Shown here: piece after piece, positions 7,023 to 50,363 of the stretch
Numbering within the stretch: position 1 is the first letter of the stretch
Layout of the letters: each line of letters begins with the position of its first letter
Assembly: GCA_030919125.1 (NCBI GenBank)
Contig: CP121470.1
Coordinates: 310,001-374,000 of the forward strand
Source of the DNA: Methanoregula sp. SKADARSKE-2
Lineage (GTDB): Archaea > Halobacteriota > Methanomicrobia > Methanomicrobiales > Methanospirillaceae
Length of the DNA stretch: 64,000 nt
Direction of reading: 5' to 3'
The notes under the pieces: generated by a model
Seen by the model: the letters and a program-made list of their open reading frames with translations, nothing else
Databases searched by the model: none
What the model was told of the DNA's origin: nothing
Translations under genes and position numbers: made by a program

Positions 7023-8920
<1,898 letters not shown>

Positions 8921-43530: not shown

Positions 43531-44844
43531 ATGGCAAAATATAAGGATTCAATCGATCTTTACGACGATGAGGGCAAGCTCTTGAAGAGCGGCGTCACCA
43601 TCGAAAGGATCAGCCCGGTAGTCAACAAGGGTGCACTTCAGGTCATCGACCTCACCAAGAGGACAGTGGCAGTCAACCTTGCCGGTATCGAGGATGCCTT
43701 AAAGACCGGAAAGGTCGGCGGCAAGTCGAACCAGATTCTCGGCCGCAGCATGAGCTGCAGCTGTGTCAAAGACTGTGACGCAATCGCGGCCAAGATCAAG
43801 GACATGGTCCAGGTCGCTGACGGTGACAACACCAAGATCACCAAGGTCGGCGGCGGCAAGATGCTCCTCGTCGAGTGCCCAACCGCACGTATGGACGCAG
43901 CAGCAACCTACGATGTCGCATCGACCGTTGTTGCAGCAGCAACCACCTACGCGCTCATTGACCAGTACAAGGTCGGCATGTTCGACGGGTCCTACATCAA
44001 GGCAGCAGTCTGGGGTACCTACCCGCAGACAATGGACATGCAGGGCGGCAACGTCATCTCGATCCTCTCCATCCCCCAGAACAACGAAGGTCTCGGCTAC
44101 GCACTCCGTAACGTTCCGGCAAACCACGCGGTCATGATGACCCACCGGAATGCAATGCAGGGTGCAGCACTCTCTGCAACCTTCGAACAGGCAGGTATGT
44201 TCGAGATGGGTAACGCAGTCGGCCCATTCGAGAGAGCACAGCTCCTCCTCTTCGCATACCAGGGACTCAATGCAAACAACATCGTCTACGACCTCGTCAA
44301 GGCGAACGGCAAGACCGGAACCATCGGTACCGTTGTTCAGAGCCTCGTCGAGCGTGCACTTGAGGACAAGGTCATCAAGGCAGGCAAGAAGGGCAAGAGC
44401 GGCTACGTCTTCTACGAGACCAAGGACCCCATGCTCTGGAATGCATATGCATCTGCAGGAACCCTCGCAGCAACCATGGTCAACTGCGGTGCCGGACGTT
44501 TCGCCCAGGCAGTCTCAGCAACCCTGCTGTACTTCAACGACCTGCTCGAGCATGAGACCGGCCTCCCTGGCGCAGACTTCGGTCGTGCAATGGGTGTCGC
44601 AGTCGGTTTCTCGTTCTTCAGCCACTCCATCTACGGTGGCGGCGGCCCCGGTATCTTCAACGGTAACCACGTCGTAACCAGGCATGCAGCCGGAGTCGGT
44701 ATGCCCTGTATCGTTGCAGCCTGTGCGCTTGATGCAGGTACCCAGATGTTCGGCCCCGAACACACGTCCAAGGTTTACCAGGACACGTTCGGTCAGCTCG
44801 ATGCATTCAAGAAGCCAATCCAGGCAATTGCAAAGGGCATTTAA
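43531..44844 (+). CDS. mcrB: Methyl-coenzyme M reductase subunit beta
   Basis: This 437-residue subunit of the alpha2beta2gamma2 enzyme forms methane from methyl-CoM and CoB. Family segments include MSCSCVKDCDAIAAKIK, AQLLLFAYQGLNANN and HSIYGGGGPGIFNGNHVVT. Length is typical. The first gene of the mcrBDCGA operon, it shows strong codon bias (many GTC, CTC, AAG, GCA), as do the other highly expressed genes here. Confidence 0.97.
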   Translation: MAKYKDSIDLYDDEGKLLKSGVTIERISPVVNKGALQVIDLTKRTVAVNLAGIEDALKTGKVGGKSNQILGRSMSCSCVKDCDAIAAKIKDMVQVADGDNTKITKVGGGKMLLVECPTARMDAAATYDVASTVVAAATTYALIDQYKVGMFDGSYIKAAVWGTYPQTMDMQGGNVISILSIPQNNEGLGYALRNVPANHAVMMTHRNAMQGAALSATFEQAGMFEMGNAVGPFERAQLLLFAYQGLNANNIVYDLVKANGKTGTIGTVVQSLVERALEDKVIKAGKKGKSGYVFYETKDPMLWNAYASAGTLAATMVNCGAGRFAQAVSATLLYFNDLLEHETGLPGADFGRAMGVAVGFSFFSHSIYGGGGPGIFNGNHVVTRHAAGVGMPCIVAACALDAGTQMFGPEHTSKVYQDTFGQLDAFKKPIQAIAKGI

Positions 44845-44862: not shown

Positions 44863-45333
44863 ATGACAGAAGCCACGTTCCCCCAGTGCAGGATAATAAC
44901 CGAGCGGCTGCTCAACCCCGAGACTACGGAAAAACTGCTCAACAGGCTTGTACTCATCCCCGGTATCCGGCGCATGATCCTCAACGGGCCCCGTCTTCCC
45001 GTAACCGTCCCGTACGGCCCTGCGAAAGGCTGCCCCAACCCTCACCCTATGAGGAAGGTAATCTGCATCGGCGACCAGTCGATCGAGCTCCAGACCCATG
45101 TTGGCACGATCCTTCTCGAGCTCGAGAGCCGGGAGATTATCCCCGCACTGCCATCCGCATGCGAAGAGGTCTTCACCAGTTTCTCCTTCCGCATCCAGGA
45201 AGGAAGATACATGAAGACCGAACCGTCACTGGTCGATTATGCCAAGTACGGCCCTCATGCGGACAAGACGATCATCGGAATGGTAGATCCAAAGAGCCAT
45301 TCCGGGCCCGTAATTCTCCAGGGAATAAAATAA
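44863..45333 (+). CDS. mcrD: Methyl-coenzyme M reductase operon protein D
   Basis: This 156-residue conserved protein lies between mcrB and mcrC. It starts with TFPQCRIITERLLNPET and contains GPRLPVTVPYGPAKGC. McrD is not a subunit of the mature enzyme; it is thought to help assembly or activation. The frame is intact. Confidence 0.93.
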   Translation: MTEATFPQCRIITERLLNPETTEKLLNRLVLIPGIRRMILNGPRLPVTVPYGPAKGCPNPHPMRKVICIGDQSIELQTHVGTILLELESREIIPALPSACEEVFTSFSFRIQEGRYMKTEPSLVDYAKYGPHADKTIIGMVDPKSHSGPVILQGIK

Positions 45334-45335
45334 AT

Positions 45336-45971
45336 ATGCCGATAGGACGAGTAACCCAGGTTGTCGATTGCCGCGAGGCAATGGGAATGGGAAAAGGGGG
45401 TGGAATCGCCCAGCGTGGCACCATCTCAGAGACCCGGTTTCCCGATGTCATTGTGGTCGGGATGTCTCCCGGACGCCGCCATGTGACAAAGCCGGTCTGT
45501 GATATCACCTCCGGCCTGCGACAACAGGGTATCGAGTACAGCATCAGCACGCTCGTGTTGAATGCCGGCAGCGGCGTGCCGCCGGATGCACCGAAAATCG
45601 GTGGCTCCGTACTCGGTGCCTATTTCGGGCTTACCCAGAAAGAGGTTGTGCAGATCGAGAGACACAAAGTCGCCATTCTTCACCACGGGAATGTCCGTTC
45701 CCATGTCGTGCATAAGGTCAGGTTTATCCTCCAGGCATGTGATGTGAAGGCAATTGTCGTTTCCCAATCCCCTGTCGATTACGAGGATTTCGCAAAAGAG
45801 GGAGTGAAGACCTCGGTTGTTATGCCGCCCGCTGATAAGATCCTTACAAAAGGTACAGTGATGGCCATCGTGAGCGGCGTAACCCGAGGTCAGACCCCCA
45901 CCCGCGAAAAAATGGCGGAAGTCATTTCGTCAGTTACGAGAATCTTGAAAACGAAGGAAACATTGGAGTGA
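45336..45971 (+). CDS. mcrC: Methyl-coenzyme M reductase operon protein C
   Basis: The protein has 211 residues from the ATG at 45336, 2 bases after the mcrD stop. The frame is open further upstream but overlaps mcrD. Typical segments are AMGMGKGGGIAQRGTI, VLNAGSGVPPDAP and KVAILHHGNVRSHV. McrC associates with the ATP-dependent activation complex that reduces the Ni of cofactor F430. Confidence 0.93.
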   Translation: MPIGRVTQVVDCREAMGMGKGGGIAQRGTISETRFPDVIVVGMSPGRRHVTKPVCDITSGLRQQGIEYSISTLVLNAGSGVPPDAPKIGGSVLGAYFGLTQKEVVQIERHKVAILHHGNVRSHVVHKVRFILQACDVKAIVVSQSPVDYEDFAKEGVKTSVVMPPADKILTKGTVMAIVSGVTRGQTPTREKMAEVISSVTRILKTKETLE

Positions 45972-45978
45972 TATAACA

Positions 45979-46743
45979 ATGGCATACAAACCCCAATATT
46001 GTCCCGGTCAGACTATTGTCGCCGACAACAGGCGCAAGCAGCTCAACCCGGACCACAAGCTGGAAAAGATTCGCGATGTCACGGACAAGGATGTTGTCCT
46101 GATCATGGGACACCGCGCACCCGGCTCAGCATACAAGAGTGCACACCCGCCGCTCTCTGAGCAGCAGGAACCAGAATGCCCGATCCGCAAGCTCGTGACG
46201 CCGACCGACGGCGCAAAGGCCGGCGACCGCGTCCGCTACATCCAGTTCGCTGACTCGATGTACAATGCACCCTGCCAGCCCTACATGAGGTCCTACCTCG
46301 AAGCATACCGCTTCCGCGGCATCGACCCAGGTACCCTTTCCGGCCGTCAGATCATCGAGTGCCGTGAGAGAGATCTCGAGAAGTACGCAAAGGAACTCGT
46401 CAACACTGAGCTCTTCGACCCCGCACTTACCGGTGCCCGTGGTGCGACTGTGCACGGTCACTCACTCCGTCTCGACGAGAACGGCATGATGTTCGACATG
46501 CTCCAGCGCTGTGTCCTCGACAAGAAGGCAGGCGTTGTCAAGTACGTCAAGAACCAGATCGGTGAGCCCCTCGACACTGAAGTCAAGGTGGGAAAGCCCA
46601 TGGACAACAAGTGGCTCAAGGCCCACACGACCATCTACCACTCGCTCGTGGGAACCGCATACCGCGACGATGCTGAACTCATCGAATACATCCAGCGCAT
46701 CCACTCGCTGAGGGTAAAATACGGCTTCATGCCAAAGGAGTGA
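45979..46743 (+). CDS. mcrG: Methyl-coenzyme M reductase subunit gamma
   Basis: The protein has 254 residues. It starts AYKPQYCPGQTIVADNR and contains IMGHRAPGSAYKSAHPPLSE, PYMRSYLEAYRFRGIDPG and ARGATVHGHSLRLDENG. It contributes to the F430 pocket and CoB channel. Spacing is tight: 7 bases after mcrC and 6 before mcrA. Confidence 0.97.
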   Translation: MAYKPQYCPGQTIVADNRRKQLNPDHKLEKIRDVTDKDVVLIMGHRAPGSAYKSAHPPLSEQQEPECPIRKLVTPTDGAKAGDRVRYIQFADSMYNAPCQPYMRSYLEAYRFRGIDPGTLSGRQIIECRERDLEKYAKELVNTELFDPALTGARGATVHGHSLRLDENGMMFDMLQRCVLDKKAGVVKYVKNQIGEPLDTEVKVGKPMDNKWLKAHTTIYHSLVGTAYRDDAELIEYIQRIHSLRVKYGFMPKE

Positions 46744-46749
46744 TAAGAC

Positions 46750-48438
46750 ATGGCAAAAGCAGCAAAAATCGAGAGAACCCAGAAGCTCTTCCTGAAGGCA
46801 ATGAAGGAGAAGTTCGCAGAGGACCCCCAGGCAACCTCGACCGTCTTCGGACGCGAAGGTCTTGAGCAGTCCCCCCGTAAAGTCGAGTTCATGAAGGCCG
46901 CAAAGAAGGTTGAGATGGAACGCGGCATCATCGGCTACGACCCCAAGCGCTGCCACCTCGGTGGTATCCCGCTCGGTCAGCGCCAGCTGATGACCTACGA
47001 AGTTTCCGGAACCGGTGTCTTTGTAGAAGGCGACGACCTCCACTTCGTCAACAACGCAGCAATGCAGCAGATGTGGGACGATATCCGCAGGACGATCATC
47101 GTCGGCCTCGACCTCGCCCACAACACCCTCCAGAAGCGGCTCGGCAAGGAAGTTACTCCTGAAACCATCAACGAGTACCTCCACGTTCTGAACCATGCAA
47201 TGCCAGGTGGCGCAGTCGTTCAGGAACACATGGTCGAGACCCACCCGTCACTTGTCGACGACTGTTACGTTAAGATCTTTACGGGCGACGACGAGATGGC
47301 AGACGACATCGAGCCCCAGTTCCTCCTCAACCTCGACAAGCTCTTCCCGGCAAAGTCGGCAGCAGCCCTGAAGGCAGCAGTCGGCAAGTCGATGTACCAG
47401 GCAGTGCACATCCCCACAACCGTCAGCAGGACCTGCGACGGTGGAACCACCTCCCGGTGGTCCGCAATGCAGATCGGTATGTCCTTCATCGGTGCGTATC
47501 ACATGTGCGCCGGTGAGGCAGCAGTCGCTGACCTCGCATTCGCAGCAAAGCACGCCGGTGTTATCCAGATGGCAGACATCCTGCCCGCCCGCCGTGCACG
47601 TGGCCCGAACGAGCCAGGTGGCATCAAGTTCGGTCACTTCGCCGATATGATCCAGGCAGACCGCACCTACCCCAACGACCCCGTCAAGGCATCCCTTGAA
47701 GTCGTCGGTGCAGGTACCATGCTCTTCGACCAGATCTGGCTCGGATCCTACATGTCCGGTGGTGTCGGATTCACCCAGTATGCAACCGCTGCATACACCG
47801 ACAACATCCTCGATGACTACTGCTACTACGGTCTTGACTACATCAAGTCCAAGCACGGTGGCATCGGCAAGGCAAAGCAGACCCAGGAAGTCGTCAACGA
47901 CATCGCAACGGAAGTCACTCTCTACGGTATGGAACAGTACGAACAGTTCCCGACCACCCTCGAGAGCCACTTCGGCGGTTCACAGCGTGCATCCGTCCTT
48001 GCAGCAGCATCGGGTATCACCACGTCACTCGCTACGGCAAACTCCAACGCCGGTCTGAACGGATGGTACATGTCCATGCTCGCCCACAAGGAAGGCTGGT
48101 CACGTCTCGGCTTCTTCGGCTACGACCTGCAGGACCAGTGCGGTTCATCCAACTCAATGTCGATCAGGCCCGACGAAGGCTGTATCGGCGAGCTCCGTGG
48201 ACCAAACTACCCCAACTATGCAATGAACGTCGGTCACCAGGGAGAGTACGCCGCTATCGCCGCAGCCGCTCACTACGGACGCCAGGATGCATGGACCCTA
48301 TCCCCGTTGATCAAGATCTGTTTCGCAGACCCGTCGCTCAAGTTTAACTTTGCTGAGCCCCGCCGCGAGTTTGCAAAGGGTGCAATCCGCGAGTTCATGC
48401 CCGCGGGCGAGCGCTCACTGATCATCCCCGCAAGGTAG
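46750..48438 (+). CDS. mcrA: Methyl-coenzyme M reductase subunit alpha
   Basis: The protein has 562 residues. This subunit holds most of the active site. The region carrying post-translational modifications is intact: methyl-His in [14 protein letters not shown], methyl-Arg near [15 protein letters not shown], and the thioglycine and S-methyl-Cys segment [18 protein letters not shown]. The diagnostic [16 protein letters not shown] used in mcrA surveys is present. It is the last gene of the operon, followed by a terminator-like hairpin and T runs. Confidence 0.98.
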
Positions 48439-48451
48439 ATCAGTTCAATCA

Positions 48452-48482
48452 TTTTTTTTTAGGGATCGCCCTAAGTTTTTTT
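48452..48482 (+). terminator. Candidate mcr terminator
   Basis: A run of nine T (48452-48460) is followed by the perfect hairpin AGGG-ATCG-CCCT (48461-48472) and a second T run (48476-48482). T-rich tracts are known archaeal termination signals. The site lies 13-44 bases after the mcrA stop. Confidence 0.65.
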
Positions 48483-48600: not shown

Positions 48601-49767
48601 ATGCTAATGAAAAACCCCTTCCACGTGATGCTCATCCCGACACTGGGGTGCCCCGGCAGGTGCAAATACTGCTGGAGTTCGGAGGAAGGGTCCCCGGTTA
48701 TGACCATCGATACCGTGAGAGCCACCGTCGAATGGCTCAAGGGATTCCGGTCCGACCGGGTCACCTTCACCTTCCACGGGGGGGAACCGCTTCTTGCCGG
48801 CGCTGATTTCTACATGCAGGCGCTTCCGCTCCTTTCGGAGGGCCTCAGAGAGCTCAACCCCGAGTTTGCGATGCAGACCAATCTCTGGCGAATGACTCCG
48901 GGGATTGCGGAGATCCTGGCGGAGTACCACATCCCTCTCGGGTCGAGCATCGATGGTCCCGAAGATATTACCGATTCACAACGGGGCGACGGGTATTTTG
49001 AAAAGACGATGAAAGGATACGAGATCGCAAAGACTCACGGTCTTCTGGTCCGTTTCATCTGCACGTTCACGAATAAATCCATGAAGCACCGGAAAGAGAT
49101 CTTCGAGTTCTTCAAGGATCAGGGATTCGATCTGAAACTTCACCCGGCACTTCCATCGCTTCGCTCCGAAAACCCGAGGGAGTGGGCGCTCGAACCCGAA
49201 GAATACGGCGAGCTGCTGGTCTACCTCCTCGACAAATCGTTGGACAATATCGGCAGGATGGAGGTCATGAACATCAGCGACCTCTGCCGGTGCGTCTTTA
49301 CCCGGAGGGGAAGCGTCTGCACATTCGTTAACTGTATGGGCAATACGTTTGCTGTTGGCCCGGATGGGAGCATCTATCCCTGCTACCGGTTCGTCGGCAT
49401 GCCGGAATGGGTGATGGGGCATCTGCGGGATAAACCGTCGATGGAGACCCTGATGCAGTCCGAGCCAGGCTGGCTTATGAGGGCATTCTCCGAATACGTG
49501 GATAGGGCCTGCAAAGACTGTTCCCATATCCGGTACTGCCGTGGAGGCTGCCCGTACAACGCGATCGCCCCGACCGGAGGGAAGATCGAGAGTGTGGATC
49601 CTCATTGCACCGCGTACAGACGGATCTTCACCGAGATCAACGACAGGCTCAACCGGGAGTTGTTCGATTCGCCCGGAATGGATATGGGTGGATTCGGTAT
49701 GTCAGGGTCCAAAAAACAGGCAAAACCCGGTATCATGGCGCTGATGCGGGCGATCGTGGAGAGATAG
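48601..49767 (+). CDS. Radical SAM/SPASM enzyme downstream of mcrA
   Basis: The protein has 388 residues. The N-terminal radical SAM motif is CPGRCKYCW (CX3CX2C), followed by FTFHGGEPLLAGADFY and SSIDGPEDITDSQRG, as in anaerobic sulfatase-maturase-like enzymes. The C-terminal SPASM part binds auxiliary clusters through NCMGNTF, GSIYPCYRF and CKDCSHIRYCRGGCPYNA. It resembles the methanogen group annotated as putative peptide-modifying radical SAM. No small precursor peptide was seen nearby; the mcr operon directly upstream makes modification of McrA a candidate role. An alternative start is at 48607. Confidence 0.85.
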   Translation: MLMKNPFHVMLIPTLGCPGRCKYCWSSEEGSPVMTIDTVRATVEWLKGFRSDRVTFTFHGGEPLLAGADFYMQALPLLSEGLRELNPEFAMQTNLWRMTPGIAEILAEYHIPLGSSIDGPEDITDSQRGDGYFEKTMKGYEIAKTHGLLVRFICTFTNKSMKHRKEIFEFFKDQGFDLKLHPALPSLRSENPREWALEPEEYGELLVYLLDKSLDNIGRMEVMNISDLCRCVFTRRGSVCTFVNCMGNTFAVGPDGSIYPCYRFVGMPEWVMGHLRDKPSMETLMQSEPGWLMRAFSEYVDRACKDCSHIRYCRGGCPYNAIAPTGGKIESVDPHCTAYRRIFTEINDRLNRELFDSPGMDMGGFGMSGSKKQAKPGIMALMRAIVER

Positions 49768-49851: not shown

Positions 49852-50363
49852 ATGCTTGCAGAGCTGATAGGGGAATATGCGGGACTGCTCAGCATGAGAT
49901 CAGTATCTTTCTACAAAACTGAACTCGGGGAAATCGGGATCGTTGAAGAGAATGGCATGGAAACAAATATCCTCTTTGCGGGGGCGGACGTTCCCGAAGA
50001 GGCTGTTGTAAGGGAGACTCCGTGGATCCAGGAAACCTCCGGGCAGTTCCGGAGATACTTTGCGGGAAAACTGCATACGTTCAATATTCCCCACTCCCCA
50101 TCAGGCACGGAGTTCCTGCTCCGGGTCTGGAAGGAATTGCAGGCTATTCCCTATGGCGAGTCAGGGGCCTACCGGCAGGTCGCAGAGCATGCAGGGAAGG
50201 CCCGGGCTTCGAGAGCCGAGATGCCTGCAACCGTAACCCAATCCCACTACTCATCCCCTGTCACCGGGTTGTAGGATGGGATGGGACACTGACCGGCTAC
50301 CGGGGCGGGCTTGAGAGAAAGGGGCGTCTCCTTGACCGGGAAAGACGATTTGCACATCTTTAG
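49852..50363 (+). pseudogene. O6-alkylguanine-DNA alkyltransferase (Ogt/MGMT), frameshifted
   Basis: The N-terminal domain and start of the catalytic domain are in one frame ([16 protein letters not shown], then [18 protein letters not shown]). The frame then goes out of register near 50215. The catalytic segment is intact in another frame: [20 protein letters not shown], with the alkyl-accepting Cys in PCHRV, followed by [16 protein letters not shown] to a stop at 50363. One indel would reunite the two. Intact Ogt removes alkyl groups from guanine. The shifted end overlaps the next gene. Confidence 0.82.

Follow-up and report, generated by a model that had tools for sequence, protein, structure and literature searches.

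The radical SAM/SPASM gene that follows mcrA in the window (the whole 64-kb stretch of DNA that was analysed) probably codes for the enzyme responsible for didehydroaspartate in McrA, and its family, TIGR04083, is probably required for that residue. Judging from sequence comparisons, we give this reading a probability of about 0.7. The enzyme probably desaturates an active-site aspartate of McrA, because the gene is present in organisms that carry the modification and is missing or broken in organisms that lack it.

MCR makes nearly all biological methane, and didehydroaspartate was reportedly described in 2016. The available excerpts of PMC7581889 and PMC8070964 list the enzyme responsible as unknown. 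A 2018 survey of mcr neighbourhoods for radical SAM genes names, in its accessible portion, mm10 and a cobalamin-dependent gene, and not TIGR04083 (PMC5943407). Our literature search, with subscription papers and preprints outside its scope, found no mention by name of TIGR04083 or of TIGR04165 (a family of small Cys-rich proteins considered below), and no enzyme assigned to didehydroaspartate. A single named gene with predictions of presence and absence would allow the didehydroaspartate question to be put to the test in a methanogen amenable to genetics, and TIGR04083 would be an extra candidate gene for the production of fully modified MCR in a host.

The gene is an intact 388-codon ORF on the + strand (48601-49767) that encodes a radical SAM/SPASM protein of 388 amino acids, as ORF analysis and profile searches agree, and the sequence-only reading had identified it correctly. 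Its match to TIGR04083 (rSAM_pep_methan) covers 375 of 376 positions and scores 690.4 bits, where the curated cut-off is 300 bits; this NCBIfam family is "peptide-modifying" by name only. The radical SAM domain is recognized by PF04055 (65.3 bits) and by a CxxxCxxC motif, and the SPASM domain by PF13186 (28.7 bits), TIGR04085 (60.2 bits) and eight invariant cysteines after residue 239. There is no second copy of the gene in its own genome, in which the next-best matches score 30.5 and 17.6 bits. Conservation was assessed in an alignment of 171 distinct orthologous sequences and in a diverse subset of these (n=71). The features of the gene are as follows.

48601..49767, + strand: radical SAM/SPASM gene, TIGR04083, 388 aa (ORF, profiles, AlphaFold2 model with pLDDT 89.6)
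48649..48672, + strand: radical SAM motif C17-x3-C21-x2-C24, invariant in the n=71 set
49318..49608, + strand: SPASM region with Cys 240, 245, 261, 304, 307, 313, 317 and 336, invariant in the n=71 set
49381..49392, + strand: C261-Y262-R263-F264, from alignment to PDB 4k37; Tyr262 and Arg263 invariant (71/71)
49615..49617, + strand: Tyr339 codon, an invariant Tyr (171 orthologues); the M. wolfeii match has TAG at this site

Upstream of this gene lies a set of mcr genes on the same strand.

43531..44844, + strand: mcrB (TIGR03257)
44863..45333, + strand: mcrD (PF02505)
45345..45971, + strand: mcrC, with the start estimated from the match (TIGR03264)
45979..46743, + strand: mcrG (TIGR03259)
46750..48438, + strand: mcrA, the proposed substrate (TIGR03256, 969.7 bits)
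48118..48120, + strand: McrA Gly457, the thioglycine equivalent (alignment)
48133..48135, + strand: McrA Asp462, the proposed target, equivalent to M. acetivorans Asp470 (alignment)
48458..48475, + strand: terminator-like hairpin with a T run, in the gap between the mcrA and radical SAM genes (1 found against 0.7 expected in shuffles; z -1.93)

The TIGR04083 gene starts 162 bp downstream of the end of mcrA (48438), close to the 160 bases given previously. The hairpin lies between the two genes, so a shared transcript is not necessary. On the far side of the TIGR04083 gene, an O6-methylguanine methyltransferase gene (49852-50363, + strand) looks frameshifted: 49852-50274 encodes its N-terminal part, and the active-site PCHRV is read in a different frame, at 50022-50363. 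Elsewhere in the window there is a GroEL gene of bacterial type, here in a methanogen (7292-8920, + strand; TIGR02348, 789 bits), which sits in a stretch of lower G+C content (about 0.47-0.49, 4 to 10 kb of the window).

Linkage of the enzyme gene to mcrA is not local to the window genome. When loci were viewed with 1.5-kb flanks, it was seen at only 3 of 45 and seemed merely local, a reading overturned by longer flanks and by gene places read from whole genomes. In 20-kb neighbourhoods (60 genomes and the window), mcrA is the commonest neighbour family, occurring at 15 of 61 loci. Both gene places were read in 155 archaeal genomes: the genes share a contig in 67, lie within 10 kb of each other in 32, and within 1.6 kb in 25. 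Such tight linkage concerns about 16% of these genomes, a minority. The 25 genomes belong to families f8 (10 genomes), f1 (8), f22 (4) and f3, f7 and f36 (1 each), the last being ANME-2c-like. The enzyme gene comes after mcrA on the same strand in 22 of these genomes, and in three, all of f22, the two genes are convergent. Linked members are spread across several branches of the enzyme tree; the genomes are related, so the 25 linkages are not independent events.

TIGR04083 scores over the cut-off in 96 of 100 sampled genomes of the window organism's order and in 88 of 294 genomes of its phylum. An mcrA match accompanies it in 86 of these 88, and the remaining two, G030 and G041, are draft assemblies from genera in which mcrA otherwise occurs. 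The family is also over the cut-off in 151 of 237 genomes of the class containing Methanosarcina and in 130 of 149 Methanobacteriales. In a separate sample of 38 genomes reached via named loci, the enzyme is present in all 16 Methanobacteriales and absent from four Methanococcales, one Methanopyri, five Methanimicrococcus-like and one Methanosalsum genome. Methanolobus is patchy (L195/G360 and L197/G362), with the enzyme in M. vulcani and none in M. bombayensis.

This pattern can be set against the known occurrence of didehydroaspartate, a residue located next to thioglycine in McrA according to the excerpts available. In the accessible part of PMC9081873 (Table 1), the organisms that carry it are M. 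marburgensis, M. barkeri and M. acetivorans, and those without it are M. kandleri, M. formicicus, M. wolfeii, M. thermolithotrophicus, M. shengliensis, ANME-1 and Ca. Ethanoperedens. A 2025 paper, as far as its text was available, reports the residue in ANME-2c and ANME-2d, and states that the modifications have not been seen to correlate with phylogeny (PMC12413448). Excerpts of PMC7058361 served as a further source on modification status.

Genomes were tied to the assayed organisms by MCR sequence identity, with the species behind PDB entries 5A8R and 5A8W taken from the available portion of PMC9118554. MrtA of the M. marburgensis match (G394) is identical to 5A8R at 358 of 358 positions, MrtA of the M. 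wolfeii match (G385) is identical to 5A8W (358/358), and McrA of the M. barkeri match (G629) is identical to 1E6Y (309/309). G541 is nearest to the ANME-2c entry 9QM5 (1202 bits), and G550 is nearest to 9QQT (1165 bits), whose assignment to ANME-2d we infer from the ANME paper together with the labelled ANME-2c entry. Family f10 is ANME-1-type as judged by one member (3SQG, 999 bits).

The enzyme gene is intact in G394, G629, G550 and G541 and is present in the M. acetivorans control; the gene thus accompanies the residue in 5 of 5 organisms or lineages, ANME-2c and ANME-2d being represented by close relatives. On the other side, the gene is broken in the M. wolfeii match and lacking in relatives of further assayed species: no enzyme over the cut-off was found in M. 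jannaschii, in four Methanococcales genomes, in one Methanopyri genome, or in any of the 32 f10 genomes that gave an McrA match, which are ANME-1-type relatives. Family f35, which may be the Ca. Ethanoperedens group to judge by a low McrA similarity, has the enzyme over the cut-off in 0 of 6 genomes. For M. shengliensis McrA, there is no match above 77% identity among the 237 genomes of its class.

Among the modifications in the accessible Table 1 of PMC9081873, only didehydroaspartate follows the enzyme pattern; the sequence-only reading had proposed to check for such a co-occurrence. A coevolving target residue was considered as additional support and rejected. The target Asp is conserved in each of the 198 McrA-like sequences examined, irrespective of gene presence, and so lends no support.

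M. wolfeii provides the closest comparison, since its MCR modifications are those of M. marburgensis minus didehydroaspartate, according to the part of PMC9081873 available. In its matching genome, the gene is interrupted by one in-frame TAG at a codon that specifies Tyr in six other Methanothermobacter genomes. This site corresponds to Tyr339 of the window protein, which is invariant in the 171 orthologues, and the stop would remove the C-terminal helix (336-355 in the AlphaFold2 model). The gene keeps the other 61 positions that are invariant in the n=71 set, all Fe-S cysteines included, and shows no sign of relaxed selection, with dN/dS of 0.06-0.10 as in its relatives. The truncated protein might therefore be functional, or the stop might stem from a sequencing error. 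Internal stops were flagged in only 2 of the 130 Methanobacteriales rows over the cut-off, namely in this genome and in draft genome G485. In a different Methanothermobacter genome of 1,751,377 bp (G392; locus L310, C1:71711-72825), the gene lies in two frames owing to a single-base difference within a G run, which is either a real loss or a sequencing error. The joint reading, in which M. wolfeii is in addition a natural knockout, seems to us fairly likely.

The earlier idea that the enzyme may modify McrA thus gains support from distribution and linkage, with didehydroaspartate as the best fit, and other residues and other targets compete with it. One alternative is that the enzyme acts in the maturation of a small Cys-rich protein, namely TIGR04165 in Methanobacteriales and another peptide in other orders. 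Of the 130 Methanobacteriales genomes with the enzyme, 99 have a TIGR04165 gene on the same strand as the enzyme gene and 21-526 bp upstream of it, and in that order a small-protein substrate fits equally well. In the others of these 130, TIGR04165 is on the same contig but farther away (8), on another contig (22), or without a match over the cut-off (1). NCBIfam names both families as parts of a peptide system, and the enzyme has a fold common to the RiPP maturases ChlB and CteB.

The TIGR04165 protein, which NCBIfam calls a Cys-rich peptide, is 50-70 amino acids long and has four invariant cysteines in the arrangement CPxCG...CxxCG. It lacks a clear leader/core precursor form and looks like a zinc ribbon; its Pfam zinc-ribbon matches are weak, as is its AlphaFold2 model (pLDDT 68.8). 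In Methanosphaera-like genomes, the TIGR04165 and enzyme genes are far apart. A whole-genome profile search found no TIGR04165 match in the window genome, and there is none in the 64-kb window. Across the 100 genomes of the window's order none scores over the cut-off, 13 having matches of at most 28 bits, and the family was not found in 80 other Halobacteriota neighbourhoods, where the enzyme is common. A listing of small ORFs with at least four Cys in the vicinity of the enzyme gene contained too much noise to be informative.

No precursor gene had been noticed beside the enzyme from the sequence alone, and this holds for the window and for the 80 Halobacteriota loci, but not for Methanobacteriales, if the zinc-ribbon-like TIGR04165 protein is counted as one. 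The sequence-only reading had also held that orthologues consistently linked to a precursor peptide gene would speak against McrA as the target, and had proposed a genome search for small Cys-rich peptides. That linkage occurs in one order only, since TIGR04165 adjoins the enzyme gene in Methanobacteriales and not in other orders, and the search of the window genome, as far as TIGR04165 is concerned, returned nothing. The adjacency weakens the McrA reading without refuting McrA as the target. A small-protein substrate would leave both the mcrA linkage and the match with didehydroaspartate without explanation, and we regard it as unlikely. TIGR04165 may instead be a clade-specific partner of the enzyme in Methanobacteriales, where a role as substrate is possible.

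Two further observations concern the surroundings of TIGR04165. In the M. marburgensis match (locus L304), a gene for a SagB-family peptide dehydrogenase (8008-8751, + strand; TIGR03605, 119.7 bits) is located roughly 1 kb from the TIGR04165 and enzyme genes. Methanothermobacter loci L303, L304 and L309 have a second, longer TIGR04165-like Cys-rich protein encoded ~5 kb off on the other strand.

It is also conceivable that the enzyme modifies MCR at another, perhaps undiscovered residue, and that the match with didehydroaspartate reflects chance or shared ancestry. Linkage to mcrA points to MCR without naming a residue, and the tested organisms are few and related. However, the other known modifications are poor candidates: N1-methylhistidine occurs in all organisms of the accessible Table 1 of PMC9081873, 6-hydroxytryptophan is found in neither Methanosarcina nor M. 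marburgensis according to the same source, and genes are already known for methyl-Arg, methyl-Cys, methyl-Gln and thioglycine, as given in the available text of PMC11796369. A different MCR residue therefore appears rather improbable as the site of action.

The anSME enzymes carry out a two-electron oxidation of a protein side chain (Ser or Cys), and their catalytic base is the Asp that follows the YPC cysteine. A structure search with the AlphaFold2 model found anSMEcpe as the closest structure (Z 35.0, rmsd 3.0, 349 residues aligned). The Asp of anSMEcpe (YPCDFY) is replaced by Tyr262 in 71 of 71 aligned sequences. That the enzyme is itself an anaerobic sulfatase maturase, or has some other housekeeping role to which the mcr neighbourhood is incidental, is very improbable: anSMEcpe is its closest solved structure and the sulfatase-maturase profile TIGR03942 gives 163.5 bits, but this is far under the cut-off of 349.45, the catalytic Asp is an invariant Tyr, and mcrA accompanies nearly every occurrence of the enzyme in the phylum.

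Under the preferred reading, with didehydroaspartate in McrA as the product, the anSME fold and the two-electron oxidation of a side chain make the proposed chemistry plausible by analogy. The enzyme would bind McrA, probably before MCR is assembled, and the McrA loop with Asp462 would enter its active site. A reduced 4Fe-4S cluster at C17, C21 and C24 would cleave SAM, and the resulting 5'-deoxyadenosyl radical would abstract a hydrogen from Asp462, probably from C-beta. An electron would then pass to the predicted SPASM clusters, a proton would be lost and the double bond would form. Such a reaction would be a two-electron oxidation like that of anSME on Ser or Cys, ending in desaturation. 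In Methanobacteriales, the TIGR04165 protein could act as an order-specific partner, either an adaptor or an electron carrier.

The enzyme resembles several known systems. With anSMEcpe (PDB 4k36-4k39) it shares the radical SAM and SPASM fold over its whole length, as reflected in the Z-score, but the two are only 24-25% identical, YPC-Asp is exchanged for YPC-Tyr-Arg, and TIGR04083 is found in methane-metabolising archaea and is mcr-linked. The SPASM peptide maturases CteB, ChlB, PapB and DynA are similar in profile, in fold and in the cysteines of their auxiliary clusters. These enzymes have their own precursor peptides, whereas the window genome has none and the candidate in Methanobacteriales is zinc-ribbon-like. 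Mmp10/MamA and MgmA are likewise radical SAM enzymes that act on McrA, and mmp10 adjoins mcr in many genomes, according to the accessible portion of PMC5943407. They methylate Arg and Gln with cobalamin, as described in the available parts of PMC11796369 and PMC9081873, whereas TIGR04083 contains a SPASM domain, gives no match to a cobalamin-binding Pfam family, and is proposed to desaturate its target. YcaO-TfuA, which makes thioglycine, and McmA, which makes S-methylcysteine, belong to other enzyme classes and modify other residues, but their targets in McrA are at most 5 residues from the site proposed here, and their genes can adjoin mcr, as TIGR04083 does.
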